64,000 nucleotides of DNA from Massilia sp. Se16.2.3 (GTDB lineage: Bacteria; Pseudomonadota; Gammaproteobacteria; Burkholderiales; Burkholderiaceae_D): contig NZ_CP050451.1 of the NCBI RefSeq assembly GCF_014171595.1, forward strand, positions 1,426,001 to 1,490,000, given 5' to 3'. How positions within the stretch are numbered: the first letter of the stretch is position 1; each line of letters opens with the position of its first letter. The notes under the pieces were generated by a model. It saw only the letters and a program-made list of their open reading frames with translations, searched no databases and was not told where the DNA came from. The translations under genes were made by a program, and so were the position numbers. Of the stretch, positions 20,907-36,828 are shown piece by piece.

Positions 20907-21823
20907 ATGAACAACGATCAGACGGAGCAGGCCGGCTCCAGCCATTGGCACCTCGGCCCCATCATCGACGCGCTGCGCACTTCGCGCGAATCGACCCACA
21001 ACATCCGCCACCAGGGACGCGTGCGCGAACTGCCGTCGCGCGCGGTGCTGCAGCAGGTGATCGAAGGCGTGTCGGCGGCGCTGTTCCCCACGCATTACGG
21101 GCGGCCAGACCTGAACGACGAAAGCATCGATTACTTCGTCGGCGACACATTGAACGTCGCGCTCGACCGCCTGGTCCAGCAGGTGCGGCGCGCGCTGCGC
21201 TTCAATCCTGGCCAGGAAGACCTGGGCGAGGCCGAGCTGACGACGCGCGCCTGCGCCATCACGCGCTCGTTTGCCACCAGCCTGCCGGAAATCCGCGCGC
21301 TGCTGGTGTCGGATGTGCAGGCGGCCCTTGCCGGCGATCCCGCGGCCAGCTCGGTCGCCGAAATCATGCTCTGCTATCCCGGCACCATTGCCGTGCTCTA
21401 CCACCGGCTGGCGCATTGCCTGCATCGGCTTGGGGTGCCTTTCCTGGCGCGGCTGGCGGCCGACATCGCCCATACGCTCACCGGCATCGACATCCACCCG
21501 GCCGCGCAGATCGGCGCCAGCTTCTTCATCGACCACGGTACCGGCGTCGTGATCGGCGAGACGGCCATCATCGGCCAGCGCGTGCGCCTGTACCAGGCCG
21601 TCACGCTGGGCGCGCGCCGTTTCCCCACCGACGAACACGGCGCCCGGTGAAAGGTGCGCCGCGCCACCCGATCGTCGAGGACGACGTCGTCATCTACGCC
21701 GGCGCCACCATCCTCGGCCGCATCACGGTGGGCGCCGGCTCGACCATCGGCGGCAATGTCTGGCTCACCCAGAGCGTGGCACCGGGCAGCAACGTCACCC
21801 AGGCGCAGATGCGCGGCTGCTAG
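20907..21823 (+). CDS. cysE: Serine O-acetyltransferase (CysE/EpsC type)
   Basis: An enzyme of about 305 residues making O-acetylserine, the carbon acceptor for sulfide in cysteine synthesis. The long N-terminal helical domain (residues 1-175) leads into the left-handed beta-helix acyltransferase domain ([26 protein letters not shown]). One frameshift lies near 21645: adding one G to GCCCGG-TG removes the TGA and continues [20 protein letters not shown] and [16 protein letters not shown]. It faces the end of the leftward sulfur operon, from which it is 43 bases away, and fits the theme of the island: making the acceptor while the neighbours supply sulfur. Confidence 0.88.
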
Positions 21824-21866
21824 ACCGGGCGCCGGCCCGCCCCGCGGCGGTACCGGCCAGCGTCGG

Positions 21867-22601
21867 CTACACGGCGTGCATCGCATGCAGGCTGGCCAGG
21901 ATGTCCGCTTTTACGGAGGAGGCCGCCAGCGCCGCGCGCGCACGCGGCCGCGCCAGGCCCACCTCGAACTCCTCGCGCGGCGGGCCCGGTAGCTTATCGA
22001 GCAGGACGACGCGGTCGCTCAGTTGCAAGGCTTCGTCGATGTCATGGGTCACCAGCAGCACCGTCAAGCGGCGCTGTTCGGCCACGCGCGCCAGCAAGTC
22101 CTGCAGGCGCATGCGCGTGAACGCGTCCACCGCCGAAAACGGTTCGTCCAGCAGCAGCACACGCGGCTCCGGGTAGAGCCCGCGCGCCAGCGCCACCCGC
22201 TGTGCCTGGCCGCCCGACAGCTGCTTCGGCAGCGCTTGCGCATAGCCGGCCAGGCCCACTTCGTCGAGCAGCGCCGCCACGCGTGCCGCGTCAAACGCCC
22301 CCGGTGCCGCACCGAAGACGATGTTCTCTTCCACCGTCAGCCGGGGAAACAGGCGCGGCTCCCGGAAGATCAGGCCGATCTCGCGCTGCGGCCCGCTGAC
22401 CTGTCCGCCGCGCAGGCGCACGCCGCCGCGGTAATGGGGATCGAGACCGGCGGCGATCGACAGCAGCGTGCTCTTGCCGCAGCCGCTGGGCCCAACCAGG
22501 CTGACGATCTCGCCAGCCTCGAGGAAGAGGCGCAGTCCGCGCAGGATGGTGCGCTCGCCATGGCGCTTTTCGTCGATGGCCACATCCAGCAGGGCGCTCA
22601 T
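21867..22601 (-). CDS. ABC transporter ATPase (SsuB/TauB type), first set
   Basis: A 244-residue ATPase of the nitrate/sulfonate/taurine class. Walker A is GPSGCGKST, signature LSGGQAQRVALARGL, Walker B VLLLDEPFS and the H loop LLVTHDIDEAL. It is the last gene of the leftward sulfur operon; its ATG overlaps the stop of the permease gene (ATGA). This set is distinct from the ssuEADCB operon copy at 33.2 kb and lacks an adjacent SsuD. The substrate is inferred to be an organosulfur compound from context only. Confidence 0.9.
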   Translation of the reverse strand: MSALLDVAIDEKRHGERTILRGLRLFLEAGEIVSLVGPSGCGKSTLLSIAAGLDPHYRGGVRLRGGQVSGPQREIGLIFREPRLFPRLTVEENIVFGAAPGAFDAARVAALLDEVGLAGYAQALPKQLSGGQAQRVALARGLYPEPRVLLLDEPFSAVDAFTRMRLQDLLARVAEQRRLTVLLVTHDIDEALQLSDRVVLLDKLPGPPREEFEVGLARPRARAALAASSVKADILASLHAMHAV

Positions 22602-23470
22602 CGGGCCTCCCGGTAGCCGGTGCGGTAGCCGGCGCGGTAGCCGGTGCGGTAGCCGACGCGGTTGCCAAGGCTGTCGCGCCAGGACAGCAGGCGTGTCTCC
22701 AGCGCCCCCATCGCGGTATCGCTGGCCTTGCCCAGCAGGGCAAGCAGGAAGATCGCGGCGAGCATGATGTCGGCGCGGCTCGATTCGCGCCCGTCAGACA
22801 GCAGGTAGCCCAGGCCCTGGCTGGCCGCGATCAGTTCGGCGGCGACCATGAACATCCACGCCAGGCTCAGGCCGTTGCGCAGTCCGGTCAGGATCGACGG
22901 CAGCGCCGAGGGCAGCAGCACCCGCCTTGCCAGCGCCGCCGGCCGCAGTCCGTAGAGCTGGCCGACCTCGACCAGCTTGCGGTCGACGCCGCGCATGCCC
23001 GCCACCACGCCCATGTAGACGGGGAAAAAGGCGCCGATGGCGATCAGGAGCAGCTTGGGCGTCTCGTCGATGCCGAACCAGAGCAGCAGCAGCGGCACCC
23101 AGGCCAGCGAGGGAATCGCACGCAGGGCCTGGAAGCTGGGGTCGAGCAGGCGCGCGCCATGGCTGCTCAGCGCCACCGGGGCGCCCAGCAGCAGCGCCAG
23201 CGTGGACCCCGCCGCAAAGCCTGCCGCCACGCGCAGGCAGCTGCTGGCCAGGTGCCCGCCCAGGCCATTGTGCGCAAGCCAGGCCAGGGTGCCGGCGATC
23301 TCGCTGGGCGCCGGCATCAGGTTGGCCGGCACCAGCCCGCTGCGTACGCCTGCCTCGGCGCCGGCCAGCGCCAGCGCAGGCAGGATCAGTCCTAGCGGCA
23401 GGCGCAGGCGCGGCCGCGGCCGGGCCGAGGGCGGCGCCAGTTCGATCGACTGGGGCGCGTCGCGTTTCAT
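22598..23470 (-). CDS. ABC transporter permease (SsuC/TauC type), first set
   Basis: A 290-residue permease with about six helices. The binding-protein-dependent EAA-type loop is seen around VEVGQLYGLRPAALARRVLLPSALPSILTGLRNGL. The C-terminus carries an odd extension, a repeated GYRTGYRAGYRTGYR tract coded by a 12-bp tandem repeat. The stop overlaps the ATPase start, and the gene lies 2 bases after the binding-protein gene. It forms a complete transporter with its two neighbours. Confidence 0.9.
   Translation of the reverse strand: MKRDAPQSIELAPPSARPRPRLRLPLGLILPALALAGAEAGVRSGLVPANLMPAPSEIAGTLAWLAHNGLGGHLASSCLRVAAGFAAGSTLALLLGAPVALSSHGARLLDPSFQALRAIPSLAWVPLLLLWFGIDETPKLLLIAIGAFFPVYMGVVAGMRGVDRKLVEVGQLYGLRPAALARRVLLPSALPSILTGLRNGLSLAWMFMVAAELIAASQGLGYLLSDGRESSRADIMLAAIFLLALLGKASDTAMGALETRLLSWRDSLGNRVGYRTGYRAGYRTGYREAR
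22613..22670 (-). repeat. 12-bp tandem repeat in permease C-terminus
   Basis: About four copies of a 12-base unit (CGGTAGCCGGTG or GGCGCGGTAGCC phase on the plus strand) code Gly-Tyr-Arg-Thr/Ala units. In-frame repeats of this kind change copy number by slippage without shifting the frame. Confidence 0.7.
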
Positions 23471-23472
23471 GC

Positions 23473-24459
23473 TCAGGCGCGCGCGATCAGCGATCGAGCG
23501 AAACGGGTGTCGATCAGGCTGGAGATCGCGGCGTCCAGGTCGGTACCCGGCTTGACCAATGCCTCGTCGCGCAGGATGGGCGCGGCCAGCTGCAAGGCCT
23601 TGATGTGTTCGTTGGACGGCTGCGGGTTGCTGAAGTCGCTGCGCAGCTTCACCTGCAGCAGGGCGACCGGCAGCGACACCTTCGCTTCGTTCGACAGGAT
23701 CTTGGCCGCCTCGACCGGATTGGCGCGGGTCCAGGCGCGGGCGCGCTCGTAGGCCCCGATCACGCGCGCCGTCTCCTGCGGATAGTTGGCCAGGAATTCC
23801 TCGCGCACGTTCAGGAAGCCATAGGTATTGAAGGCCACGTTCCGGTACAGCAGGCGCGCGCCGCCTTCGAGCTCGCTGGCCGCCATGTGCGGATCGAGCC
23901 CGGCCCAGGCGTCGACGCGGCCCTGCTCCAGCGCCGTGCGCCCGTCCGCGTGCTGCAGGCTGACGTGCTCGATGTCCTTGCGCCCGAGTCCCACGCTGTG
24001 CAGTGCGCGCAGCAGGAAGAGATACGGATCGGTACCCTTGGTGGCCGCGATCTTTTTGCCTTTCAGGTCGGCGAGCGTGCGGATCGGCGAATGCTTCGGC
24101 ACCACCAGCGCGGTCCACTCCGGGCGCGAATAGATATAGGGCGTGCGGATCGGGTTGCCGTTGGCGCGGGCCAGGAGGGCGGCGAGGCCGGCGCTCGAGC
24201 CGAAGTCGATGCTGTTCGCATTCAGGTATTCGAGCGCGCGGTTGCTGCCGGCGCTGAGCACCCATTTGATGCGGGTGCCGTCGGCCTTGAAGGCTTCTTC
24301 CAGCCAGCCGAAATGGCGCAGCACCAGGCTGGTGGGCGAATAATAGGCGTAATCGAGGCGCAGTTCTTCCAGCCGGGCCGATGCCGAACGGGCCGACAGC
24401 GGCAGGATGGACAGGGCGGCGCCGCTGGCGGCTAGCTGGAGCAGGCTTCTTCTTTTCAT
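23473..24459 (-). CDS. Aliphatic-sulfonate-type ABC substrate-binding protein, first set
   Basis: A 328-residue periplasmic binding protein of the SsuA family. A twin-arginine-like signal (MKRRSLLQLAASGAALSILP) starts it. The mature part has the NMT1/SsuA-like fold sequence (YAYYSPTSLVLRHFGWLEEAFK, IDFGSSAGLAALLARANGNPI, LADLKGKKIAATKGTDPYLF, VDAWAGLDPHMA). It is followed by its permease and ATPase and preceded by a flavin monooxygenase gene 15 bases upstream. SsuA-like binding sites vary, so sulfonates, sulfones or other organosulfur compounds are all possible. Confidence 0.88.
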   Translation of the reverse strand: MKRRSLLQLAASGAALSILPLSARSASARLEELRLDYAYYSPTSLVLRHFGWLEEAFKADGTRIKWVLSAGSNRALEYLNANSIDFGSSAGLAALLARANGNPIRTPYIYSRPEWTALVVPKHSPIRTLADLKGKKIAATKGTDPYLFLLRALHSVGLGRKDIEHVSLQHADGRTALEQGRVDAWAGLDPHMAASELEGGARLLYRNVAFNTYGFLNVREEFLANYPQETARVIGAYERARAWTRANPVEAAKILSNEAKVSLPVALLQVKLRSDFSNPQPSNEHIKALQLAAPILRDEALVKPGTDLDAAISSLIDTRFARSLIARA

Positions 24460-24474
24460 GGTGTTCGCTTTCGG

Positions 24475-25901
24475 TCAGGCTGCGGGACGCAGCGCAATGT
24501 CGATCCGGACCTGGCGGCCCGGGTGGTTTTCCTGCAGGCGCGGGCCGGTGCCGAGCAGGCGTTCGCGCAAGGTGGTGGCGCTGTCCGCACCGGCTTCGTC
24601 TACCCTGTAGCGGCCGCGCCGCCGCAGTTCCGGCACCACCAGTTCGACGACGTTGCGCATGTCTTCTTTCGCCAGCGCATAGGCCAGGTTGAAGCCGTCG
24701 ATGCCGGTCTCGTCGAACCATGTCAGCAATTCGTCCGCTACCTGGCGCGGGTCGCCCACGATCACGGGGCCGCGTCCCCCAGGCCGATGAAGCGCGCCGC
24801 CTCGCGCACGGTCCAGCGTCGCGACGGATCGGCGACGGAAAGCGATGCCAGCGCCGAGCGGCCGGCCTCGGTGTCGATGTAGTCGATCGTGGCGTCGAGG
24901 TCGTAGCGGGAAAAATCGACACCGGTCCAGCCCGAGAGCAGGGTGAGGGACGCGTCGATGTCGATGTGCTCTTCGTATTCGCGCAGGCGTGCGCGTGCTT
25001 CCTCTTCGGTGGCGCCCGTGACCACCAGCGCCTGCGCATACACCAGCAGCGCCTGCGGATCGCGCCCGGCGGCGGCGACGACCGCGCGCGCGCTGTCGAC
25101 ATAGCGCTTGACGATGGCGCGGGTGGGCGCGCTGACAAAGGTGGCTTCGGCGTGGCGCGCGGCAAACGCCAGCCCGCGCGGGGAGGCCCCGGCCTGATAC
25201 AGGAAGGGCGTACGCTGGGGCGACGGCTCGCACAGGTGGATGCCGGGGACGGTGTAATGCACCCCTGCGTGATTGATCGGGTGCACCCGGCTTGGGTCGG
25301 TGTAGACGCCGCGCGCACGATCGCGCACCACGGCGTCCTCGTCCCAGCTCTTTTCCCACAGTTTATAGACGACTTCCAGGTATTCGTCGGCCAGGTCGTA
25401 GCGGGCGTCGTGGCCAAGCTGCTGCGCCTGGCCCAGGTTGCGCGCGGCGCTGTCGAGGTAGCCGGTGACGATGTTCCAGCCGATCCGCCCCCCGGTCAGA
25501 TGGTCGAGCGTCGACATGCGGCGGGCGAAAGTGTACGGATGTTCGTAGGTGACGGCGGCAGTGACGCCGATGCCGAGGCGCGTGGTCGCACCCGCGATGA
25601 CGGGTGCCAGCAGCAGCGGATCGTTCAGCGGGATCTGCACGCCGTGTTTCAGCGCCGCGTCCAGGCTGCCGCCATGGACATCGTAGGCGCCCAGCACGTC
25701 GGCGAGGAAGATGGCGTCGAAGCCGCCCGCTTCCAGCAGGCGCGCCAGCTCGGCCCAGTAGCCGGCATCGCGGTAGTCGGCGCCGCGCTTGAAGCCATCA
25801 GCGCGGGGATGGCGCCACAGCCCTGGCGACTGGTGGCTGGGCGTGTTCATCTGGAAGGCGTTGAAGCGGACCGGTTTCGAAAGAGTGTGCACCGCTGTCA
25901 T
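24475..25901 (-). CDS. NtaA/SnaA/DszA-family flavin-dependent monooxygenase (LLM class)
   Basis: A bacterial-luciferase-like FMNH2-dependent monooxygenase of about 475 residues. Family marks: an N-terminal FNAFQMNTPSHQSPGLWRHP, substrate-barrel strands (GFDAIFLADVLGAYDVHGG), and GRIGWNIVTGYLDSAARNLG, the flavin-site motif of the NtaA/SnaA/DszA group. A single frameshift lies at 24776-24780 (five C on the plus strand); one extra base joins RFIGLG to GRGPVIVGDPRQVADELL. Members cleave C-S or C-N bonds in sulfones, nitrilotriacetate or related compounds. It needs reduced flavin, which the SsuE-like reductase across the control region could supply. The ATG overlaps the upstream binding-protein stop. 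Confidence 0.86.
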
Positions 25902-26722
25902 TTTGCGTTTTTCTCCATCGCCAGCTGGTAGTCGGTCTTGGCGTAGTCCGCGAACAGGCGGTTCGTCACCTCCAGGAACTCACGCGAGCGGTAGGCCGCG
26001 GCGATGTCGCGCGCGAAGGGCTTGTCCTTGTCGGCGGTGCGCACCGCCACCAGGTTGGCATAGCTGGGCGAAATCTTCTCGGTGCGCAGCGCGTCGCGCA
26101 GTTTCAGGCCCGAGGCCAGGGCGAAGTTGCCGTTCACGAAAGCGTAGTCTGCGTCCTGCAGGGAGCGCGGCAGCTGCGCCGCTTCCAGCGGCAGCAGTTT
26201 CACGCCGCGCAGGTTGGCGGCGATGTCCTTCTCGGACGCCCGGATCGGGTCGATGCCGGGACGCAGGCGGATCCAGCCGAGTTGGTCCAGCATCACCAGT
26301 GCGCGCGCCTGGTTGGTCGGGTCGTTCGGCAGCGCGACCGTGCTGCCCGCCCTGGCCTCGTCGAGCGAGCGGTGCTTGCGGCTGTAGATGGCGATCGGCG
26401 CGGTCGGGATCTTGACCAGTTCCGACAGCGCCAGCTTGTGCTGCTCGGCGAAGCGGGTCAGGTAGACGATGTGCTGGAACACGTTGGCATCGAGCGAGCC
26501 TTCGGCCAGCGCGAAGTTCGGCTGGATGTAGTCGTTGAATTCCACCAGCTTGACCTTGTAGCCCTGTTTTTCCAGGATCGGCTTGATGCCGAGGCGGACC
26601 TGGTCGGCGTACGGCCCGGCACTGGTGCCGATGACGAGTTCCTTCGGGTCCCTGGCCTGGGCGCCGGCGAGCAGCGACAGGCCGAGCATGGTAGCGAGCA
26701 GGGAACGGCGGGCAGAAAACAT
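25898..26722 (-). CDS. MetQ/NlpA-family ABC substrate-binding protein
   Basis: A 274-residue periplasmic binding protein. It begins with a Sec signal (LLATMLGLSLLAGAQA) that has no lipobox cysteine, so it appears soluble rather than a lipoprotein. Family sequence is clear: ELVIGTSAGPYADQV, GYKVKLVEFNDYIQPNFALAEGSLDANVFQH, and ALPNDPTNQARALVMLDQLGWI. MetQ proteins bind methionine or related thioethers. Its partners are the permease and ATPase genes just upstream. In this island an organic sulfur ligand is plausible, but binding specificity cannot be read. Confidence 0.9.
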   Translation of the reverse strand: MFSARRSLLATMLGLSLLAGAQARDPKELVIGTSAGPYADQVRLGIKPILEKQGYKVKLVEFNDYIQPNFALAEGSLDANVFQHIVYLTRFAEQHKLALSELVKIPTAPIAIYSRKHRSLDEARAGSTVALPNDPTNQARALVMLDQLGWIRLRPGIDPIRASEKDIAANLRGVKLLPLEAAQLPRSLQDADYAFVNGNFALASGLKLRDALRTEKISPSYANLVAVRTADKDKPFARDIAAAYRSREFLEVTNRLFADYAKTDYQLAMEKNAK

Positions 26723-26743
26723 GAGGGGTCCTTGTGGGTTGGA

Positions 26744-27407
26744 TCAGCGTTTGTCGAGGCGGCGCGCCGCGCGGTTGCCGGCGAACTGGATCAGCTGCAC
26801 CAGCAGCACCAGCAGGGCGACGGTCAGCACCATGACCTCGGTCTCGAAGCGGTAGTAGCCGTAGCGGATGGCGAGGTCGCCGATGCCGCCGCCGCCCACC
26901 ACGCCGGCCACGGCCGAATACGACAGGAAGCTGATCGCCAGTACCGTCAGCGACAGCACGGGGGCGGCGCGCGCTTCCGGCAGCAGCACGCGGATGACGA
27001 TCTGGAATTCGGAGGCGCCCATCGCCTGCGCCGCTTCGATCACGCCGCGCGGCACGTCGCGCAGATTCTGTTCGACGAGGCGCGCGAAATAGAAGATCGC
27101 CGCCAGCGACAGCGGCACGGCGGCCGCCAGCGGGCCAATGGAAGTGCCGGCCAGGGTGCGCGTGACCGGCACCAGCGCGACCATCAGGATGATGAAGGGG
27201 AAGGAGCGCACCGTGTTGACGATCCAGCCCAGCACCAGCGCGGCGGGGCGATGCGCCAACGCCTGGCCCTGCGATACCGGGAACAGCAGCACCCCAGCGG
27301 GCCGCCGACCAGCAGGGAACCGCGCCCAGGCCGATGCCGAGCATCAGCGCGGTTTGCAGGAAAGCGGTCCAGAGTTCGGGCAGGATGGCGATGAGTTGTT
27401 CAGGCAT
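26744..27407 (-). CDS. MetI-type ABC transporter permease, frame-interrupted
   Basis: A permease of about 220 residues with five hydrophobic helices and the EAA loop ([27 protein letters not shown]). The start is [30 protein letters not shown]. The frame shifts in a GC-rich stretch near 27325 and 27297, where expected family sequence ([18 protein letters not shown]) is readable only by changing frame. The true C-terminus is intact ([11 protein letters not shown]). The start overlaps the ATPase gene end by 8 bases. Indels are the likely cause. Confidence 0.82.
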
Positions 27408-28214
27408 GGGCCGCTCCCCAGGCGGCCGCGGCGAAGGCCTCGGTACCGTAATAGGCCAGTTCGCGTCCCAGTGCGGTGCGGCGCGCGACGCTGTGGTCGG
27501 CCAGCGCGAACTCCTCGGCAACGAGGCCGTGTTCGATGACGGCGACGCGCCCGCACAGCGTGCCCAGCACCGGCAGCTCGTGACTGACGATGACGACCGT
27601 CACGCCCAGCTGGGCGTTGATGGTGCGCAGGGTCTCGAGCAGGGCGCGCGTGGTTTCGGGGTCGAGCGCGGAAGTCGGCTCGTCGCACAGCAGCACGGCC
27701 GGATGGCTGGCCAGCGCGCGGGCGATCGCCACGCGCTGCTTCTGCCCGCCGGAGAGCTGCGCCGGATAGGCGGTCGACTTGTCGGCCAGCCCGACCAGTT
27801 CGAGCATTCTTCCACGCGCGCTTGCAGGCGCGGGGCGTTCATCGCATCGTGGATGCGCAGCGGGAAGGCGACGTTTTCGAAGACGCTGGCGTTCTGCAGC
27901 AGGTTGAACTGCTGGAAGATCATGCCGATGCGCCGGCGCGCCGCCCGCAGCTCGCGCTTGCCCAAGCGCGTGAGTTCCTCGCCGTCGACGCTGACCGTGC
28001 CGCGGTCGGGCCGCTCGAGCAAATTCATCATGCGCAGCAGGGTCGACTTGCCCGCGCCGCTGCGCCCGACCAGGCCGAAGATCTCGCCGCTGGCGATGTC
28101 CAGGCTCGCATCGCGCACGGCATCGAAACAGCCGCCATCGGGCAGGGCGAAGGATTTGGCGACGCCGTCGAGGCGGATCGCGCTCGCCGCCGCGGGTTTC
28201 GGATAGCTGTCCAT
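27400..28214 (-). CDS. MetN-type ABC transporter ATPase without NIL domain, frame-interrupted
   Basis: An ATPase of about 272 residues: Walker [11 protein letters not shown] loop IFQQFNLL, signature [15 protein letters not shown], Walker [16 protein letters not shown] loop [10 protein letters not shown]. One frameshift near 27808 interrupts [15 protein letters not shown]; the following sequence is fully conserved. Normal MetN is about 343 residues with a C-terminal NIL regulatory domain that binds methionine. Here the protein stops about 70 residues earlier and the domain is missing. This suggests import not feedback-inhibited by methionine, or a different substrate. Confidence 0.85.
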
Positions 28215-28217
28215 GGG

Positions 28218-29438
28218 TCAGGAGTAGGGCGTGGGTTCGGGCAGGCGGCCCTCGAGCGCATAGCGTCCGAGGTCGCGCAATTTGTAGTCGACCGGGTCGT
28301 GCAGCGTGTGCACGCGGGCGTTGCGCCAGTAGCGGTCGAAGCCGAAGCGGTTCGAGGTCGAGCGCGCACCGGTCAGCTCGAACATCTCGCTGCCGATGTC
28401 GAGCGCGGCGCGGTGCGCCAGCACCTTGGCTGCGGCGACGGAAACTGCCACCTCGCCCCGTTCCTGCGCGCTCAGGGCGGCACCCTGGTCGAAGGCCGCG
28501 TCGAGCAGGCGCGCGGCCTCGTCGGCCAGCAGGAGCGCCGGGCGCAGCTTGAGCCAGAACTCGCCATAGCGGTGCTGCACGAACGGGTCGTCGCTGGACT
28601 GGCCGACGCTTGATGCAAACCAGGGCCGCGCGTGGTCCAAAGTCCAGGTGCGCGCGGCGCCGAACGCCCCTTCGGCGATGCCGAGATACAGGTTGGTCAT
28701 GATCAGCTGGGCCACCTGCGAGCGCAGTGTCGACTGGGGTGTTGGTGTCTGCCCGGGCGCCTGCAGGACCAGCGCCGACGGCAGGTAGACGCCGTCGAAG
28801 TGGACGTTGCCGCTGTCGGTCTGGCGCTGGCCGAAGGCATCCCAATCCGCCTCGACGCGCACGCCCACCTGGTCGGTCGGCAGCACCCCGATCAGGGCGG
28901 CGCCTGCCTCCTCGACCCAGGCCGACACCGTCAGCCAGTCGGAACCCACCGAGCCGGACGAAAAGCTCTTGACGCCGTCGAGCACGAAGCCGCCGGGGAT
29001 GGCACGGGCCGCGGTGCGCTTGTCGAGCGGGTTCAAGGCATTACCCCAGAACAGGCCCTGCTGCACGGTCGCGCCCAGCAGGTTGCGCTGCTGGACCGCG
29101 GTGCCGTACAAGAGGATGCCCGCCAGCTGCAGGTGGTGAAAGCCGAACACGTGGGCCAGGGCGCTGTCGCTGGCCGCCAGCGTGCGCACGGCGGCCAGCA
29201 CGGTCTGCCAGGACGCGCCCTGGCCGCCGAAGGCGCTCGGGATCGACAAGGTCAGCAGGCCGCTGGCGCGGATCAGGTCGCGTTCGTGCGCGGCATGGCC
29301 GCCGGCGCGGTCGCGCTCGGCGGCGGTGAGGGCGAACTGCGCCGCCAGTTCGGCCGCCAGCGCCAACGGGTCTTGCGGGGCGGTGGCGGCCGGCGTAGCG
29401 TCCGCGGTGGCCTGCACGGCCGAGGAAAGAGAAGGCAT
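28218..29438 (-). CDS. SfnB/DszC-like flavoprotein of the acyl-CoA dehydrogenase fold
   Basis: A 406-residue protein of the acyl-CoA dehydrogenase superfamily, nearest to SfnB/DszC-type sulfur-acquisition flavoproteins: [67 protein letters not shown], and [38 protein letters not shown]. DszC-type enzymes use reduced flavin and oxygen to oxidise sulfur; SfnB is linked to sulfone use. The canonical dehydrogenase Glu is not apparent. The ATG at 29438 is preferred to an upstream in-frame codon at 29477. It is the first gene of the leftward operon. Confidence 0.82.
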
Positions 29439-29514
29439 GGGGAAGCATTGTCGAGAAAGTGGCGGCCAGTATTGCACCGCCCAACGGCGTTCGTGAACGA
29501 AGAAATCCGGTCTT

Positions 29515-29552
29515 CGATATGCGCAAAACCTTAAAACGCCGAGCGCATATCG
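29515..29552. promoter_or_regulatory. 10-bp perfect inverted repeat in the divergent sulfur control region
   Basis: CGATATGCGC (29515-29524) and its exact complement GCGCATATCG (29543-29552) are separated by 18 bases. They lie in the 189-bp gap between the divergent SfnB-like and SsuE genes. Arm spacing of about three helical turns centre to centre suits a dimeric or tetrameric activator such as a LysR-type sulfur regulator (CysB/Cbl/SsuR class). Which protein binds is not shown. Confidence 0.55.
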
Positions 29553-29627
29553 ATGTGCGAAACGATTAGTTTTCTTTCAACACGCAGGGCTCTACGCTGT
29601 CCTCATCCATATTGATCGGACAACATC

Positions 29628-30205
29628 ATGAGCGTCATCCTGCTGGGCGGAAGCCCCTCGCCGCATTCTTCTTCCTCGCGCCTGCTGCACTACATCGGCG
29701 ACCGCCTGGCCCTGCACGGCCATCGCATCGCGGCCATCGAAGTACGCGAACTGCCGGCGCAGGCGTTGCTGGCCGCCGACCTTGCCGACGCCGAGATCGC
29801 GCGCGCCCTGTCGCTGGTGCGCCAGGCGGAAGCGGTGATCGTGGCCACTCCCGTCTATAAAGCGTCCCACACGGGCCTGTTGAAAGCTTTCCTCGACCTG
29901 TTGCCGCAGGACGGACTGGCCGGCAAGCTGGTGCTGCCGCTGGCCACCGGCGGCAGCCAGTCGCACATGCTGGCGCTCGACTATGCGCGCTGCGCCCGGT
30001 GCTGGCCTCGCTGGCGGCGCGCTTCATCCTGCCGAGCATTTATGCGACGGCGGACCAGCTGGGGCGCGGCGGCGACGGCAGCCTGGTGCTGGCCGCCCCG
30101 ATCGCCGTGCGCGTCACCGCGGGCGTCGAGCAGCTCGCCTCCGAACTCCAGGGCGGCGCACCGGCGCCAAGTGCCGCCATCGACCGCGTCCACGCCCACG
30201 CCTGA
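29628..30205 (+). CDS. ssuE: NAD(P)H-dependent FMN reductase SsuE/MsuE
   Basis: A flavodoxin-fold reductase of about 192 residues that supplies FMNH2 to SsuD. Family marks: LLGGSPSPHSSSSRLLHYIG at the N-terminus (phosphate loop) and VIVATPVYKASHTGLLKAFLDLLPQDGLAGK. A frameshift near 29990 (an extra GC in GCGCGCTG) interrupts ALDYA-LRPVLASLAARFILPS; the rest is conserved. It is first in an E-A-D-C-B gene order identical to the E. coli ssu operon. The reductase may also serve the two flavin enzymes of the divergent operon. Confidence 0.87.
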
Positions 30206-30236
30206 ATTCCCATCTATATAGAAGAGAGAACACCAC

Positions 30237-31212
30237 ATGCCTCCCGACCATCCTTCGCGGCCCGCGCGCCGCCACGCCCTTGGACCTGCTTGCCGCGGGC
30301 ATCGCCGCCGGCCTGCACGGCCATGTCCTTGCCCAGTCCGCCCCGCTGTCGGAAGTCCGCATCGGCTACCAGAAATACGGCACCCTGACCCTGCTCAAGG
30401 GCCGCGGTACGCTGGAAAAGCGCCTGGCGGCGCGCAAGATCGCCGTCAAGTGGACTGAATTCCCGGCCGGCCCGGTCCTGCTCGAAGGGCTCAACGTCGG
30501 CAGCATCGACTTCGGCACGGTAGGGGAGGCGCCGCCGATCTTCGCCCAGGCTGCCGGCGCGCGCCTGGTCTATGTCGGTCACGAACCGGCCTCCCCGGGC
30601 AGCGAGGCGATCGTCGTGCCGAAGGGTTCCACACTGCGCACGCTGGCCGACCTGCGCGGCAAGAAAATCGTCCTGAACAAGGGCTCGAACGTGCACTTCC
30701 TGCTGGTGCGCGCCCCGGAAAAAGCCGGCATCGCCTACAACGAGATCCAGCCGATCTACCTGCCGCCCGCCGACGCGCGCGCCGCTTTCGAGCGCGGCAG
30801 CGTCGATGCGTGGGTGATCTGGGATCCGTTCCTGGCCGCCGCCGAGCAGCAGCTGGGCGCACGCGTACTGGCTGACGGCCGCGGGCTGGTGTCGAACCAC
30901 CAGTTCTACCTGGCCTCGCGCAGCTTCGCCGAGGCGCACCCGGACGTGAACCGCATCCTGCTCGAGGAAATCGCCAAGGTCGACGAGTGGGGCCGCGCCA
31001 ATCCGGCCGAGGTGAGCGCAATCCTGACGGCCCAGACGGGCCTCGCGCCGAATGTCGTCGAACTTGCCGCGAAGCGCTATGCCTATGGCGTCAAGCCGAT
31101 GTCGCCTGAAGTGATCCGCGAGCAGCAACGCATCGCCGACGCCTTCCACGGCCTGAAACTGATTCCGAAACCCATCGCGGTAAAAGACGCCCAGCTGGCG
31201 ACCCCGCTCTGA
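30237..31212 (+). CDS. ssuA: Aliphatic sulfonate-binding protein SsuA
   Basis: A periplasmic binding protein of about 325 residues. An ATG at 30237 starts [15 protein letters not shown]; one extra base near 30280 shifts the frame, after which [18 protein letters not shown] completes an export signal. The mature protein is typical Ssu[100 protein letters not shown]. It lies between ssuE and ssuD and delivers alkanesulfonates to SsuC/SsuB. Confidence 0.9.
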
Positions 31213-31222
31213 AGGAAAGTCC

Positions 31223-32373
31223 ATGTCCACCCCTGACGTTTTCTGGTTCCTCCCTACCCACGGCGACAGCCGCTATCTCGGCACGGCAAAAGGTGCCCGG
31301 TCGGTCGACGCCGACTATCTGCGCCAGATCGCGGTCGCGGCCGACACGCTCGGCTACGACGGCGTGCTGCTGCCCACCGGCCGCTCTTGCGAAGATCCCT
31401 GGATCGTCGCCTCCTCGCTGATCGGCGCCACCCAGAGGCTGAAATTCCTGGTGGCGATCCGGCCGGGCCTGTCGACGCCGGGCCTGTCGGTGCGCATGGC
31501 GTCCACTTTTGACCGCCTGTCGAACGGGCGCCTCCTGATCAACGTCGTCACCGGCGGCGACCCGGGCGAACTGGAAGCCGATGGCTTGGTGGCCGACCAC
31601 GCCAAGCGCTATGAAATTTCGGATGAGTTCATCCGCATCTGGCGCGCCAGCATGGCCGGGGAAGGTGGCGCGGCCGGCTTCGATTTCGAGGGCAAGCACC
31701 TGCAGGTGAAGGGCGCCCGCACCCTGTACCCTCCAGTGCAGAAACCCCATCCGCCGCTGTATTTCGGCGGCTCCTCGGAACCGGCGCACGAGCTGGCGGC
31801 CGATCAGATGGACGTGTACCTGACTTGGGGCGAGCCGCCGGCGGCGGTGGCCGAGAAGCTGGCCGATATCCGTGCCCGCGCCGCCAGGCGCGGCCGCACC
31901 GTGCGCTTCGGCATCCGCCTGCACGTGATCGTGCGCGAGACCAATGAAGCGGCCTGGCAGGCAGCCGATGAGCTCATCAGTCACCTCGACGACGAGGTCA
32001 TCGCCAAGGCGCAGGCCGCGTTTGCGAAGATGGATTCGGTCGGCCAGCAACGCATGGCCGCGCTGCATGGCGGGCGCCGCGACAAGCTCGAGGTGTCGCC
32101 GAACCTGTGGGCGGGCGTCGGCCTGGTGCGCGGCGGCGCCGGCACCGCCCCGGTGGGCGACCCGGAAACGGTGGCGGCGCGCATGCGCGAGTACGCCGAC
32201 CTCGGCATCGAGACCTTCATCCTGTCGGGCTATCCGCACCGGAAGAGTCCTACCGCTTCGCCGAACTGGTGTTTCCGTTGCTCGGCAAAGGGAAACAGCA
32301 GGGCGAGCAGTCGCTGACCGGTCCCTTCGGCGAGATGATGGCCAGCGACATCGTGCCGAAGAAGGCGGCCTGA
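31223..32373 (+). CDS. ssuD: FMNH2-dependent alkanesulfonate monooxygenase SsuD
   Basis: A luciferase-like monooxygenase of about 383 residues that splits alkanesulfonates to aldehyde and sulfite. Sequence is close to canonical Ssu[75 protein letters not shown] frameshift near 32243 falls after LSGYPH; the C-terminus ([19 protein letters not shown]) continues in the next frame, so one missing base is likely. The stop overlaps the ssuC start (TGATG). Confidence 0.93.
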
Positions 32374-33201
32374 TGGCGGCGGCCGAGCTGACTGGGGCAG
32401 CCGCGGCCGGCACGCGGCAGGCGCCGGCACGGGGAGCGTGGACGCGGCCTGGCCGCGGCGCTGGCCGGCTGGGCATTGCCGGTCGCGCTCGTGCTGGGCT
32501 GGCAGCTGGCAGCCCAGCTCGGCTGGCTGTCGAGCCGCATCCTGCCCGCGCCCTGGCAGGTGCTGACGGCCTTCTGGTCGCTGGCCGAGTCGGGAGAATT
32601 GTGGACCCACCTGCGCACCAGCCTGTGGCGCGCCACCGTCGGCTTTGGCCTGGGCGGCGGACTGGGGCTGCTGCTGGGCTTGCTCACCGGCAGTTCGCGG
32701 CGGGCGGAAACGCTGCTCGACACCACCCTGCAAATGATCCGCAACATCCCGGCGCTGGCGCTGATCCCGCTGGTCATCCTCTGGTTTGGCATCGACGAGA
32801 CGGCCAAGCTGTTCCTGCTCGCCGTCGGCGTCTTCTTCCCGGTCTACCTGAACACCTTCCACGGCATCCGCTCGGCGGACCAGGGCCTGATCGAGATGGC
32901 GCGCAGCTACGGGCTATCCGGCTGGGCGCTGCACCGCGACGTAATCCTGCCGGCGGCGCTGCCTTCGATCCTGGTCGGGATGCGCTTTTCGCTGGGCCTC
33001 GTCTGGGTACTGCTGATTGTGGCGGAAACGATTTCGGCGCAATCGGGGATCGGCTACATGACCATGAACGCGCGCGAATTCCTGCAAACCGACGTGGTGC
33101 TGGTCGGCATCCTGCTGTACGCCCTGCTGGGCAAGCTGGCCGACCTGGCGGCACGTCTCCTCGAGCGGCACTTTCTGCGCTGGAATCCCGCTTACCTTTG
33201 A
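32373..33201 (+). CDS. ssuC: Sulfonate ABC transporter permease SsuC
   Basis: A permease of about 276 residues with six helices and the loop LIEMARSYGLSGWALHRDVILPAALPSILVGMRF. The start is the ATG overlapping the ssuD stop. A one-base shift near 32455 separates the hydrophilic N-terminus from LAGWALPVALVLGWQLAAQL; the remainder is intact. It pairs with the SsuB ATPase gene 11 bases downstream. Confidence 0.88.
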
Positions 33202-33212
33202 TAGGACCCACG

Positions 33213-33983
33213 ATGCATATCACAACGGAAGAAGCGGCCCGGGTCAGCCTGGCAGCAAGGCAGGGCGCGCGCGGCGCGGCGGTATCGCTGCGCGGCTTGT
33301 CGAAACGTTATGGCGGGCGCAGCGTACTGGAAGGGATCGACCTGCGCATCGCGCCTGGCGAATTCGTTGCCGTGGTCGGGCGCAGCGGCTCTGGCAAGAG
33401 CACGCTGCTGCGCCTGATCGCCGGCCTCGAGCGTGCCGACGGCGGCGAGCTCGTCGTCGATGCCGGCAGCGACGGCCGGGGCCTGCGCCTGATGTTCCGG
33501 GGAAGCGCGGCTGCTGCCCCGGAAGACTGTGCTGGACAATGTCGCGCTCGGGTTGAAGGGCGCCGAGGGCATCCGGAAGGCCAGGGGGGCGCTGGCGACC
33601 GTCGGCCTGGCCGAACGTGCCGGCGAGTGGCCCGCGGTGCTGTCGGGCGGGCAACGCCAGCGCGTCGCCCGGCGCGCGCGCTGGTGCATGCGCCGCAACT
33701 GCTGCTGCTCGACGAGCCGCTGGGCGCGCTCGACGCTCTCACCCGCATCGAGATGCAGGAATTGATCGCCTCGCTCTGGCGGCAGCAGGGTTTCAGCGCC
33801 GTCCTCGTCACGCACGACGTCCAGGAAGCACTGGCGCTGGCCGACCGTGTCCTGGTTGTCGAGGACGGGCGCATCGCGCATGACCTGGCCGTCACGCTCC
33901 CCCATCCCCGGGAGCGCGGCAGCAGTGCGTTTGCCGCCCTCGAGCGCGCATTGCTGGACTGCGTGCTCGGTACGGGGTCTTGA
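33213..33983 (+). CDS. ssuB: Sulfonate ABC transporter ATPase SsuB, two compensating shifts
   Basis: An ATPase of 256 residues if both ends are read in the same frame. Walker A is [13 protein letters not shown], signature [10 protein letters not shown], Walker [18 protein letters not shown] loop [11 protein letters not shown]. Two opposite indels lie inside: near 33500 (a run of four G; removing one gives [20 protein letters not shown]) and near 33668 (one T missing from [12 protein letters not shown]). They cancel, so the gene starts and ends in frame. Such paired errors argue for sequencing faults. It is the last gene of ssuEADCB. Confidence 0.87.
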
Positions 33984-34528
33984 AGGCCGGGCGGGTTGCT
34001 TTACGGCCGAGTGTTCGCGCAGCCAGCGCAGGCGGCGGGCTGGCGCCGTATCGCTGTATTTACATCTCAAGAGCAATAAAAGTGCCGCAATTCTGTGGCT
34101 TTAAAAAAGTCAAGCGTTTTCGCTAGTTCATGCATGAATACAACAGTCAGAAAGTATTAATCCTACAACTTAACAAGATTTTGTCGGACAAATTGATGGC
34201 CCATGGCAAAAGTTTCCACGCTTGCGTCGCCGTCTTGTCTTTCTTGACACAGTGAAAGTTGGCCAGAACAGCGAAAAATCCGGGTGAAATCCCCTACATT
34301 TAGATACAAATATGCAGCCTGAGTAGAATATTTTCTTCTAGGAAAATTTAATATTTGCCTAATTAAATCAATTATGCAACGTAAGTTACCTATAGGAAAT
34401 TCGCTATGTGGCCTAGCGCACAATAGATTCTGCGTTTGACATTCAGAAACGGGTCGCATATCGTCATCGGTTCGCGTCGAGCGAGTTTTTGAACTGCAAC
34501 ACAGTCCAACTAGATTCTGGAGATACGC
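33984..34528. other. AT-rich gap without a gene
   Basis: After about 80 GC-rich bases, the stretch 34060-34440 is markedly AT-rich compared with its surroundings. It contains many T and A runs and stops in all frames. No gene, terminator or tRNA is recognisable. A promoter-like pair at its right end serves the following small gene. Confidence 0.5.
34436..34464 (+). promoter_or_regulatory. Promoter of the DUF2442-like gene
   Basis: A perfect TTGACA (34436-34441), a 17-base spacer and TATCGT (34459-34464), about 65 bases before the ATG. Confidence 0.55.
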
Positions 34529-34744
34529 ATGGAACCATCCGAACAGAAGCACGAGGAAAAAGTGAAAGCAGTGAGCGTGGACGATGAGTGCTTTTACATC
34601 GACCTGCAATGCGGCCTGCGCTTGAGCGGCCCGCGTCTGGTTTCCGTTCCGCTGTCCGAGGCAGAGAACCTGGCGTCGCCCCGCAATGCCGCGCTGCGCC
34701 AGGAATGGGAAGCAGCCCCCGCGTTCGAATGCGCGGGAGAGTGA
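34529..34744 (+). CDS. Small DUF2442-like protein
   Basis: A 71-residue protein with GGAG 7-10 bases before its ATG. The order KVKAVSVDDECFYIDLQCGLRLSGPRLVSVPLSEAENL, then ASPRNAALRQEWE, follows the DUF2442 pattern of two short strands, a 'VPL' turn and a helix with 'AxPxxRxxWE'. The cysteine pair and acidic tail are its own. DUF2442 proteins occur alone or beside toxin-like DUF4160 genes, but no partner is seen here. It is flanked by an AT-rich gap and a hairpin. Confidence 0.65.
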   Translation: MEPSEQKHEEKVKAVSVDDECFYIDLQCGLRLSGPRLVSVPLSEAENLASPRNAALRQEWEAAPAFECAGE

Positions 34745-34764
34745 GCTGAACGATTTCCTCCTCG

Positions 34765-34795
34765 CGGGGTAGCGGCCCCAAGAGGCCGCACCCCG
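34765..34795 (+). terminator. Strong hairpin after the DUF2442-like gene
   Basis: CGGGGT-A-GCGGCC, loop CCAAGA, GGCCGC-ACCCCG: 12 paired bases with one bulged A. It lies 20 bases after the stop and lacks a U-tract, so it may protect the transcript end rather than terminate. Confidence 0.45.
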
Positions 34796-34855
34796 TGCCG
34801 CACGATTGCGGACCTTATTAAAATGAACACGGACTGATGGGGTTAGAATGTTCCC

Positions 34856-35689
34856 ATGAAGATTCGTGTCGCAACCTACAATATTCACAAGGGCGTCTCG
34901 TCGCTGCGCAGTACCCCGCGGGTGCTGGCGCTGAAAAAAGCGATTTCCGAATTCCACGCCGATATCGTCTTTCTGCAGGAAGTGCAGGGGCGGCATGACC
35001 GCCACCAGGAGCGCTACGGCAACCACAAGCGCCCGCACCGGGTGTGGCCCGAAGCCGCCCAATACGAATATTTCGCCGGCGACTCCCACCACGCGGCCTA
35101 TGGCATGAACGCCGTCTACGACCACGGCCACCACGGCAATGCGCTGCTGAGCAGTTTTCCGATCGAAAACAGCCATAACCACGACGTCTCCGACCACGCC
35201 TACGAACAGCGCGGCATCCTGCACTGCGTACTGGAAACCCCGGCGGGCAAGGTGCACTGCTATGTCGTCCACCTGGGCCTGTTCGAAGGCGGACGCGGGC
35301 GCCAGGCCGAACAGCTGATCGAGGCCGTCCAGCGATCCTCGCACGGCGAGCCGGTGATCATCGCGGGCGACTTCAACGACTGGCGCAATACCCTCAGCGC
35401 GCGCCTGCGCAATGCGCTGGGCGTTGTCGAGGTATTCGACGAACTCGGGCCGAAATCGGCCCTGGGTGACATGGTGCGCAGCTGGGCAGGCCGCCAGCCG
35501 CGCCTGGCGCCGGCGCGCACCTTCCCGGCCGCGCTGCCCTGGTTCCGGCTCGACCGCATCTATGTGCGCGGCTTCAAGGTCGACAATGCCCGGGTCATGG
35601 CCGGGCCGATGTGGGCCAGGCTGTCCGACCATGCGCCGATCGTGGCCGAACTGCAGCTAACTGAAGCATGCGTAGCGTTACCTACGTAG
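34856..35689 (+). CDS. Endonuclease/exonuclease/phosphatase-family protein (YbhP-like)
   Basis: A 277-residue member of the EEP metal-dependent phosphoesterase fold. Catalytic motifs are complete: RVATYNIHKG, the metal ligand in FLQEVQG, HGNALLSSFPI, IIAGDFNDW and LSDHAPIVAEL. It overlaps the following cardiolipin synthase-like gene by 22 bases. In E. coli the homologous pair is ybhP-clsB(ybhO), so a role alongside phospholipid synthesis is likely. Whether it acts on lipid phosphates or nucleic acid is not known. Frame intact. Confidence 0.88.
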   Translation: MKIRVATYNIHKGVSSLRSTPRVLALKKAISEFHADIVFLQEVQGRHDRHQERYGNHKRPHRVWPEAAQYEYFAGDSHHAAYGMNAVYDHGHHGNALLSSFPIENSHNHDVSDHAYEQRGILHCVLETPAGKVHCYVVHLGLFEGGRGRQAEQLIEAVQRSSHGEPVIIAGDFNDWRNTLSARLRNALGVVEVFDELGPKSALGDMVRSWAGRQPRLAPARTFPAALPWFRLDRIYVRGFKVDNARVMAGPMWARLSDHAPIVAELQLTEACVALPT

Positions 35690-36828
35690 CGAACAACGAC
35701 GTCATCCTCCTCGAAACCGGCCGCCAGCTGTTCCCGGCAATGATCGAGGCGATCGACGCGGACCCGTCACGAAATCCTGTTCGAAACCTATATTTTCGCC
35801 GAGGACACGGTCGCGCGCGGCATCGAGGCCGCGCTGGTGCGGGCCGCCGCGCGCGGCGTCAAGGTGCGCGTGCTGGTCGACTGGTTCGGCACCGGCGGCC
35901 GCGCCTGCCGGCGCCTGGGCGAGGTGTTCGCCGCCGCCGGCGTCCATTACCGCATTTTCAACCGCTGGTTCAGGCGCGGCATCGCGCGCACCCACCGCAA
36001 GATCACCGTTGTCGACGGCACGGTCGCCTTTGTCGGCGGCATCAATATCAACGACGACATGCTCTGCGATTACGATCCCGACAAGGCGCTGCCCGCGCCG
36101 CGCTGGGATTTCGCGGTACGCGTGACCGGCCCCCGGTGGCGCAGATCCATTTCGAGGCCCAGGCCCAGTGGATGCGCGCCGGCCACCTCGACCTGCGTCA
36201 CCGCATGGAGCTGTTCCGGGAGACGCGGCGCCAGCCGCCGACCGAGGGCGCGCGGCCGATGCGCGCCGGTTTCGTCGTGCGCGACAACCTGCGCAACCGC
36301 CGCACCATCCAGCGCGCCTACCTGCAGGCCATCGGCCAGGCCCGTAAAAGCGTGCTGCTGGCCAATCCCTATTTTGCGCCAGGCCGCAAATTCCGCGACG
36401 CCCTGGCCCAGGCGGCCAGCCGCGGTGTCGAGGTGACCCTGCTCATCGGCGTCGGCGAATTCCACCTGCAGGACGCCGTGGCACGGTCCTTCTATCCGAA
36501 ACTGCTGGCGGCCGGCATCGAGGTCGTGGAATACCGCAAGACCCAGCTGCACGCGAAAATCGCCGTGGTCGACGATGACTGGGCGACGGTCGGATCGAGC
36601 AACTGCGACGGCCTGTCGCTGTTCCTGAACCAGGAAGCCAATATCGTCGTGCGCAACGCCTCTTTTGCCCGCGCCGTACGTACCCATATACAGAAAGGTA
36701 TCGCCGACGGCGTGCCCGTGCTTCCCCAGCAGTTCGAGGGCATGGGATGGGTGCGCCGTGCTGCATATGAAATGGCGTACCTTCTCTATAAACTGACGAT
36801 GCGCATATTCGCCATCGGCTACGCGTGA
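35668..36828 (+). CDS. clsB: Cardiolipin synthase ClsB-like phospholipase D-family protein
   Basis: A protein of about 386 residues with two HKD motifs: HRKITVVDG near residue 110 and HAKIAVVDDDW near 295. ClsB joins phosphatidylglycerol with phosphatidylethanolamine or another donor to make cardiolipin. Two opposite frame changes, near 35768 (IDA-TRHEILFETYIFAEDT) and 36132 (TGPPVAQIHFEAQAQW), cancel, so start and stop share a frame. The C-terminus has a hydrophobic helix (AYEMAYLLYKLTMRIFAIGY). The ATG lies inside the YbhP-like gene, implying coupled translation. Confidence 0.87.
   Translation: MRSVTYVANNDVILLETGRQLFPAMIEAIDADPSRNPVRNLYFRRGHGRARHRGRAGAGRRARRQGARAGRLVRHRRPRLPAPGRGVRRRRRPLPHFQPLVQARHRAHPPQDHRCRRHGRLCRRHQYQRRHALRLRSRQGAARAALGFRGTRDRPPVAQIHFEAQAQWMRAGHLDLRHRMELFRETRRQPPTEGARPMRAGFVVRDNLRNRRTIQRAYLQAIGQARKSVLLANPYFAPGRKFRDALAQAASRGVEVTLLIGVGEFHLQDAVARSFYPKLLAAGIEVVEYRKTQLHAKIAVVDDDWATVGSSNCDGLSLFLNQEANIVVRNASFARAVRTHIQKGIADGVPVLPQQFEGMGWVRRAAYEMAYLLYKLTMRIFAIGYA

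Follow-up and report, generated by a model that had tools for sequence, protein, structure and literature searches.

A conserved organosulfur island in Massilia and its relatives, with two divergent gene runs that look like one unit

Much of the sulfur in soil is organic, and the access of soil and rhizosphere beta-proteobacteria to it is known mainly via Pseudomonas and Escherichia coli. A locus of Massilia sp. Se16.2.3 raises the question of whether a sulfonate operon and the flavin-enzyme and transporter genes facing it are mere neighbours or one system. The genome is one contig of 5.35 Mb (NZ_CP050451.1), and the window analysed here, the 64,000 nucleotides from position 1,426,001 to 1,490,000, contains an island of 13 genes at 21867-33983 of the window, arranged in two divergent runs: an ssu operon to the right and, to the left, genes for a flavin monooxygenase resembling MsuC and DszC (the DszC-type enzyme), a MetNIQ transporter, a luciferase-like monooxygenase (LLM) and a second SsuACB transporter. 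We favour, with a probability of about 0.55, the reading that the 13 genes are a conserved island that acts as one unit in scavenging sulfur under starvation and most likely lets the cell take this element from organic compounds under sulfate shortage. Its gene content, its conservation, nested forms in other genera and the sharing of a predicted operator are read from the DNA and carry this view.

The gene calls combine the list of open reading frames (ORFs) with NCBIfam profile matches of the window proteins, and they bear out the initial annotation of a 13-gene, organosulfur-related locus in two divergent runs. On the forward strand, in exact ssuE-A-D-C-B order as in the ssuEADCB operon of E. 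coli and Pseudomonas, lie ssuE (flavin mononucleotide (FMN) reductase, 29628..~30205), ssuA (30237..31212, its start uncertain and its sequence conserved from about 30262), ssuD (alkanesulfonate monooxygenase, 31223..~32370), ssuC (permease, ~32431..33201, start uncertain) and ssuB (ATPase, ~33210..33983). SsuD exceeds two curated NCBIfam cut-offs (618 against 510 and 587.6 against 518.2 bits), SsuC and SsuA of this run also score above theirs, and the piece of SsuE before a frame break reaches 153.2 bits against a curated cut-off of 164.05. The difference from that operon is the divergent run on the reverse strand, which comprises the DszC-type gene (28218..29438, with a possible alternative upstream GTG start at 29477), metN (ATP-binding cassette (ABC) ATPase, 27400..28214), metI (ABC permease, 26744..~27407), a metQ-like gene for a substrate-binding protein (25898..26722), the LLM gene (~24475..25901) and a second Ssu-type set made of ssuA2 (substrate-binding protein, 23473..24459), ssuC2 (permease, 22598..23470) and ssuB2 (ATPase, 21867..22601). 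A gap of 3 bp separates the DszC-type gene from metN, and overlaps of 4 bp join metQ to the LLM gene and ssuC2 to ssuB2. Beyond the end of this run, and convergent with it, stands the serine O-acetyltransferase gene that had been noted there, of CysE/EpsC type (20907..21823, forward strand).

The same order recurs in many genera across Burkholderiales, so the arrangement is not due to chance, nor is it a peculiarity of one strain; confinement to a single strain, which the initial annotation had named as a refutation, does not hold. Relatives of the LLM enzyme at E<=1e-60 are present in 36 of 116 family genomes, and those of the DszC-type enzyme in 25 of 61 genus genomes at E<=1e-60 and in 19 of 300 order genomes at E<=1e-100, the own genome being included each time. 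Outside the own genome, 34 of 42 LLM loci were fetched from the family search (the eight left out are 36-55% identical, four of them being second places in genomes already used), together with 20 of 24 DszC-type loci from the genus search. The 28 places of the order-level search gave 15 fetched stretches. A DszC-type gene is found in the stretch for 18 of the 22 fetched loci whose LLM enzyme is at least 60% identical (L034-L053, L074, L075). The order is complete, MetNIQ, CysE and both Ssu sets included, in the congeners L054 and L057, in Duganella sp. Root336D2 and Root1480D1, and in M. aquatica, M. rubra and Massilia sp. CF038. Strain-specific acquisition is rejected in view of this wide conservation and of the flanks aspS-nudB-cysE and EEP-PLD that congeners L054 and L056 share. 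Partners of the DszC-type gene were then counted in 80 named loci, the best 80 of 250 confirmed, whose counts lean to close relatives; genes were flagged by identity thresholds within flanks reaching at most 10 kb, and some loci (e.g. L206, L234) are clipped by the end of a contig. SsuD accompanies the DszC-type gene in 67 of them (divergent in 49, on the same strand in 18), MetQ in 68, an LLM enzyme of the island type in 62, CysE in 44 and SsuA2 in 28. The MetNI flag of five Janthinobacterium loci (L166, L188, L209, L229, L230) denotes a second metNIQ several kb off.

The two divergent runs look like one unit because genes of the leftward run sit inside single-strand ssu operons elsewhere, which supports the initial annotation in treating them together. 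Derxia gummosa (L099/L157) and D. lacustris carry, on one strand, ssuE-A-A-D-C-[A2-C2-B2]-DszC-MetN-I-Q-LLM-ssuB. A metagenome-assembled genome (MAG) from a bog has ssuE-A-D-C-DszC-MetN-I-Q-LLM-ssuB (L074) and, at a second locus (L075, with the named copy L232), the same order minus MetNIQ and without the second Ssu set; L051 (L235) reads ssuE-A-D-C-DszC-MetN-I-Q-LLM-SsuA2 up to the contig end, and eight loci of Achromobacter have ssuE-(A)-D-C-DszC-MetN-I-Q-ssuB, which lacks the LLM gene. No SsuA match was found in five of the eight Achromobacter loci, and upstream of five of the eight there are two further DszC-like genes in tandem and an LLM gene that is less closely related (50-52%). The final gene of the nested operons is nearest to SsuB1 (52-64%), and the module therefore sits between ssuC and ssuB.

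In the window, the gap between the runs holds two inverted copies of ACGAA-N15-ATATGC, a predicted operator conserved in an alignment of 21 gap sequences, one from the window and 20 from other loci (L043 was excluded for its length). The first half-site, ACGAAGAAATCCGGTCTTCGATATGC (29497..29522, forward strand), lies 58 bp upstream of the start codon of the DszC-type gene (29438), and the second, an inverted copy with one mismatch to the search pattern (29545..29570, reverse strand), 57 bp upstream of that of ssuE (29628). With up to 3 mismatches the pattern has 13 matches in the own genome versus 4 for the reversed pattern. At up to 2 mismatches three sites are left, namely the two island copies and one located 65 bp before a sulfate-binding-protein gene (548 bits against a cut-off of 288), and the reversed-pattern control gives 0 matches in this genome. 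At the same threshold, the 61 genus genomes yield 53 matches, in 31 genomes, versus 14 for the reversed control. When 30 operator loci were inspected, one place per genome in 30 genomes with the own included, 20 were found beside island-type genes (DszC, SsuE or SsuD type) and four (congeners L138, L140, L141, L143) 57-58 bp before TauD-like dioxygenase genes; two of these four genes were checked by Pfam, and NCBIfam, applied to one, gave a score below the cut-off for taurine dioxygenase.

A weight matrix built from 35 genus sites scores at least 17 in 65 of the 80 named loci. Of the 77 outside its training set (L198, L201 and L214 overlap it), 62 reach this score, and 66 of all 80 pass a threshold of 15; the highest of 2860 shuffle controls reached 13.6 in the named loci, and 16.8 was the highest in a separate scoring of fetched loci. 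Where ssuE is on the same strand, no operator precedes the DszC-type gene (L048, L074, L075, L099; L051 not scored), as expected since this gene lies inside the operon, and before ssuE it is weak or absent (the same four loci and L051); the named loci agree with this. At L065-L070 an operator scoring 27-37 precedes a DszC-type gene that is not beside ssu, these sites being outside the training set. Shared by sulfonate, sulfate-binding-protein and TauD-like genes, the predicted element predicts a sulfur-starvation regulon, whose regulator we infer to be a LysR-type protein like CysB or SsuR. Such a common promoter element is what likens it to the CysB/Cbl/SsuR sulfur regulons; the site sequence is derived from the present analysis, no published site having been found for comparison. 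Another of the 30 inspected loci, L154, has a 2-mismatch match near a TusA-like gene (Pfam), which may be due to chance.

For the compounds handled and the sequence of enzyme steps we infer the following scheme. Sulfate shortage would activate the two divergent promoters at the shared inverted operator, probably via the CysB/SsuR-type activator, the two Ssu-type transporters would import sulfonates or sulfones, and MetNIQ would import methionine-like amino acids. SsuE would supply FMNH2 to all three monooxygenases, a sharing between the two runs that had been proposed before and that we regard as plausible only. The LLM enzyme would act first and open the C-S bond; the MsuC-like DszC-type enzyme would come second and place oxygen onto sulfur, converting sulfinate to sulfonate or carrying out an earlier S-oxidation; and SsuD would act last, releasing from the sulfonate the sulfite used for cysteine synthesis. 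An LLM enzyme acting first, with the MsuC-like enzyme directly upstream of SsuD, is favoured over the order DszC-then-LLM because of the analogy with SfnG-MsuC-MsuD/SsuD chemistry: according to PMC8234197 and PMC13352529, SfnG turns dimethyl sulfone into sulfinate, MsuC turns sulfinate into sulfonate and MsuD/SsuD release sulfite, one FMN reductase feeds these enzymes and the Acinetobacter baylyi genes are induced without sulfate.

Several observations weigh against a single unit acting in this way. The modules are lost separately, the LLM gene being missing in 18 and MetQ in 12 of the 80 named loci. Neither methionine gamma-lyase (best match 389.7 against a cut-off of 549.7 bits) nor SfnG is found above cut-off by profile searches of the genome, and the use of methionine via that lyase is not supported. 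According to PMC9259527, tested homologues of DmoA, one of them from Janthinobacterium, gave no methanethiol from dimethyl sulfide (DMS), a weak point since no working positive control was seen there. At 75 columns that distinguish MsuC from DszC/TdsC, the DszC-type enzyme is MsuC-like at 24 and DszC/TdsC-like at 21, where P. aeruginosa MsuC matches MsuC at 49; because it is about equally unlike both, the alignment places it in a subgroup of its own, for which MsuC activity would be a candidate function only. As for the operator, about a quarter of the genus matches are expected by chance from the reversed control, five of the 30 inspected loci are near nothing recognisably sulfur-related, the match before a sulfate-binding-protein gene occurs in one genome only, and the element is absent or weak in the single-operon loci of Derxia, Achromobacter and MAGs (the 14 named loci that fail the threshold of 15 are two of Derxia, eight of Achromobacter, two MAG single-operon loci, one of Undibacterium and one Comamonas MAG).

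The alternative that survives best, a serious one though clearly behind a joint unit, is that the island assembles independent salvage modules, DszC-MetNIQ, LLM-SsuACB2 and SsuEADCB each handling its own compound, with only FMNH2 and the sulfur-starvation switch in common. Partial loci are consistent with this: DszC-MetNIQ occurs without the LLM gene (L070, L071 and the eight Achromobacter loci), DszC-LLM-SsuACB2 without MetNIQ (L187, L212), DszC followed by SsuA2-C2 only (L213) and DszC-SsuD alone (Malikia, Azohydromonas). Against it speak L075/L232, which keeps the DszC-type and LLM genes in the ssu operon without MetNIQ or the second Ssu set, and the co-occurrence of LLM and MetQ in 59 of the 80 named loci.

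A slightly less probable alternative is the route of the initial annotation, in which an "SfnB/DszC" enzyme S-oxidises a sulfide or sulfoxide that the LLM enzyme then cleaves, like DszC then DszA, apart from SsuD. The 4S pathway, where enzymes of adjacent families act in series, is a precedent for it. In addition, PMC13352529 describes group D enzymes of A. baylyi, Dms1-3, that oxidise DMS to dimethyl sulfoxide and dimethyl sulfone. However, neither half of the enzyme's label could be kept, its scores being 356.5 bits against an NCBIfam equivalog cut-off of 850 for DszC and 296.8 against 430.9 for SfnB. The protein, an acyl-CoA-dehydrogenase-fold flavin monooxygenase, shares 50.0% identity with MsuC, 45.2% with DszC and 41.7% with TdsC. 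Quick trees (SH-like approximate likelihood ratio test 90-99; one row of less than 300 amino acids dropped) place it outside the DszC/TdsC group, in a sister clade to the characterised MsuC clade and not inside it, and the first tree sets it far from SfnB-annotated and tandem DszC-like genes. Like MsuC, it has none of the residues at 14 DszC/TdsC-only columns. SsuD is moreover no less constant a neighbour than the LLM gene (67 versus 62 of 80), the single-operon forms link genes of the leftward run with ssu, and in Malikia, Azohydromonas and a Comamonas MAG the DszC-type gene is followed directly by SsuD, an msuD-msuC arrangement, with no island-type LLM gene beside it. A separate route with the DszC-type and LLM enzymes in series is not supported.

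As the candidate C-S cleaver of the single scavenging unit, the LLM enzyme deserves closer comparison. Its description as NtaA-type stands at the level of the family (437.6 bits against the curated cut-off of 279.7 for TIGR03860, NtaA/DmoA), but the resemblance is nearer to the solved enzymes DmoA (48.0% identity; the nearest by score, 392 bits) and LadA (51.8%), values that already point to the fold but would not decide the substrate. It keeps 15 of the 17 scored cofactor or substrate site residues of DmoA, as listed in PMC9259527, including Y138, which is H in LadA; S137 is replaced by G and G231 by P, and the GLG motif at 366-368 is outside the scoring. In the LLM tree, from which row L086_18451_36 was dropped, it branches weakly with DmoA (bootstrap 87). 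Its context differs from that of DmoA and LadA in being sulfur scavenging, not methylotrophy or alkane use. That it is a true DMS monooxygenase feeding methanethiol onward is improbable, for although its score and site residues point to DmoA, the identity with LadA is slightly higher, the DmoA homologues mentioned above made no methanethiol (PMC9259527) and none of the group C enzymes of A. baylyi showed detectable oxidation of DMS (PMC13352529). Salvage of N-acetyl-S-alkylcysteine of the CmoO/CmoJ kind (PMC10863075) was rejected, since the island genes include no N-acetyltransferase or deacetylase and the LLM enzyme matches DmoA and LadA (392 and 370 bits) much more strongly than YtnJ/CmoJ (165 bits). 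Within the own genome the LLM query finds only itself and SsuD at E<=1e-3, and the DszC-type query only itself at E<=1e-10, with one far weaker SfnB-model match besides; because these queries find little else and no SfnG passes, the island looks like the genome's main flavin-enzyme equipment for organosulfur.

The MetQ protein keeps all seven methionine-contacting residues of Neisseria meningitidis MetQ (Y81, F98, H100, Y103, R156, N213, N238; PMC6739813), is below its curated cut-offs (164.3 against 374 and 149.3 against 228.85 bits) and is the only MetQ found in the genome at E<=1e-8. Since the only MetQ found retains a methionine-type site, MetNIQ need not share its compound with the Ssu-type transporters. 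The window protein has no lipobox cysteine, and among the island MetQs checked only that of L048 matches the lipobox pattern; N. meningitidis MetQ is lipidated, and lipidation is reportedly needed for its interaction with MetNI (PMC8416018). In some relatives metQ stands beside the DszC-type and LLM genes without metN or metI in the run (L037-L039, L041, L043 and eleven Janthinobacterium loci).

It is tempting to go further, although only tentatively, and to see in the island a Burkholderiales unit that we have not met in the literature, in which a third lineage of the DszC/MsuC fold, a DmoA/LadA-type C-S cleaver and SsuD, under one operator (ACGAA-N15-ATATGC), would convert methionine-like or thioether sulfur to sulfite, a module placed inside the ssu operon in Derxia and the bog MAG, and with its DszC-MetNIQ part there in Achromobacter. 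A close known system is the msuEDC/sfn pathway for dimethyl sulfone of Pseudomonas (SfnG, MsuC, MsuD), which shares the combination of an FMN reductase, an SsuD/MsuD-type and a MsuC-like enzyme; a P. aeruginosa plasmid has msuE-ssuD-msuC about 4 kb from metI/metN-type genes. The differences are that SfnG is not found above cut-off here, that sfnR is not among the island genes and that the enzyme is a sister to MsuC. The Dms1/Dms2-MsuD-SsuD route of A. baylyi (PMC13352529) is alike in its group D S-oxygenases, its SsuD, a single shared flavin reductase and induction without sulfate; the island differs in that its only group D enzyme belongs to the MsuC lineage.

The combination of several transporters and three flavin enzymes in one locus, which the initial annotation did not recognise as described, has close parallels in sulfur islands of Rhizobium, Pantoea and Achromobacter and on the P. 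aeruginosa plasmid. The component families are all known; what appears new is the operator, the nesting within ssu operons and the lineage sister to MsuC, literature searches having returned no description of them, which is weak evidence of novelty as most subscription papers were outside their coverage. A conserved island with a recognisable operator provides a ready-made enzyme set and promoter test. It could reveal the compounds on which each of three related flavin-enzyme lineages acts, and the operator would allow the sulfur-starvation regulon of these genera to be mapped from sequence.

Several genes of the region are interrupted in the assembly. Two-frame matches to congener L054 were obtained for at least six of 14 genes, namely metN, metI (near the N-terminus), the LLM gene (near the C-terminus), cysE, ssuE and ssuD (near the C-terminus), and the one-frame identity of SsuB to the congener falls to 61%, its middle part having probably been shifted out of frame and back. 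All these genes are single open frames in congeners L054 and L057. We read the breaks as probable assembly indels, rather than decay, because identity falls equally, to 61%, in a phospholipase-D-like gene that lies next to the island but is not part of it; the affected region, with ssuB probably included, spans 20907-36828. Broken island genes are seen in relatives as well, the LLM gene being in pieces in L167 and L204 and metQ in two pieces in L058.

Other arrangements were met among the relatives. L069 is a remnant that retains a DszC-type gene, a portion of metN and a fragment of the LLM gene from its C-terminal end, which suggests loss. Another type of cluster (L077, L078, L080-L085, L103, L111) has two tandem DszC-like genes and an LLM gene 47-54% identical, most with MetQ-like proteins that keep only two to four of the seven methionine-site residues; it may be of a DMS-oxidising type. 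A Malikia-like DszC-SsuD pair filed under a Chitinophaga pinensis MAG (L183) is likely a misbinned contig or a transfer. In an Undibacterium relative (L046, 14252-15613), the DszC-type run is divergent from what appears, as judged by eye, to be an O-acetylhomoserine sulfhydrylase gene.

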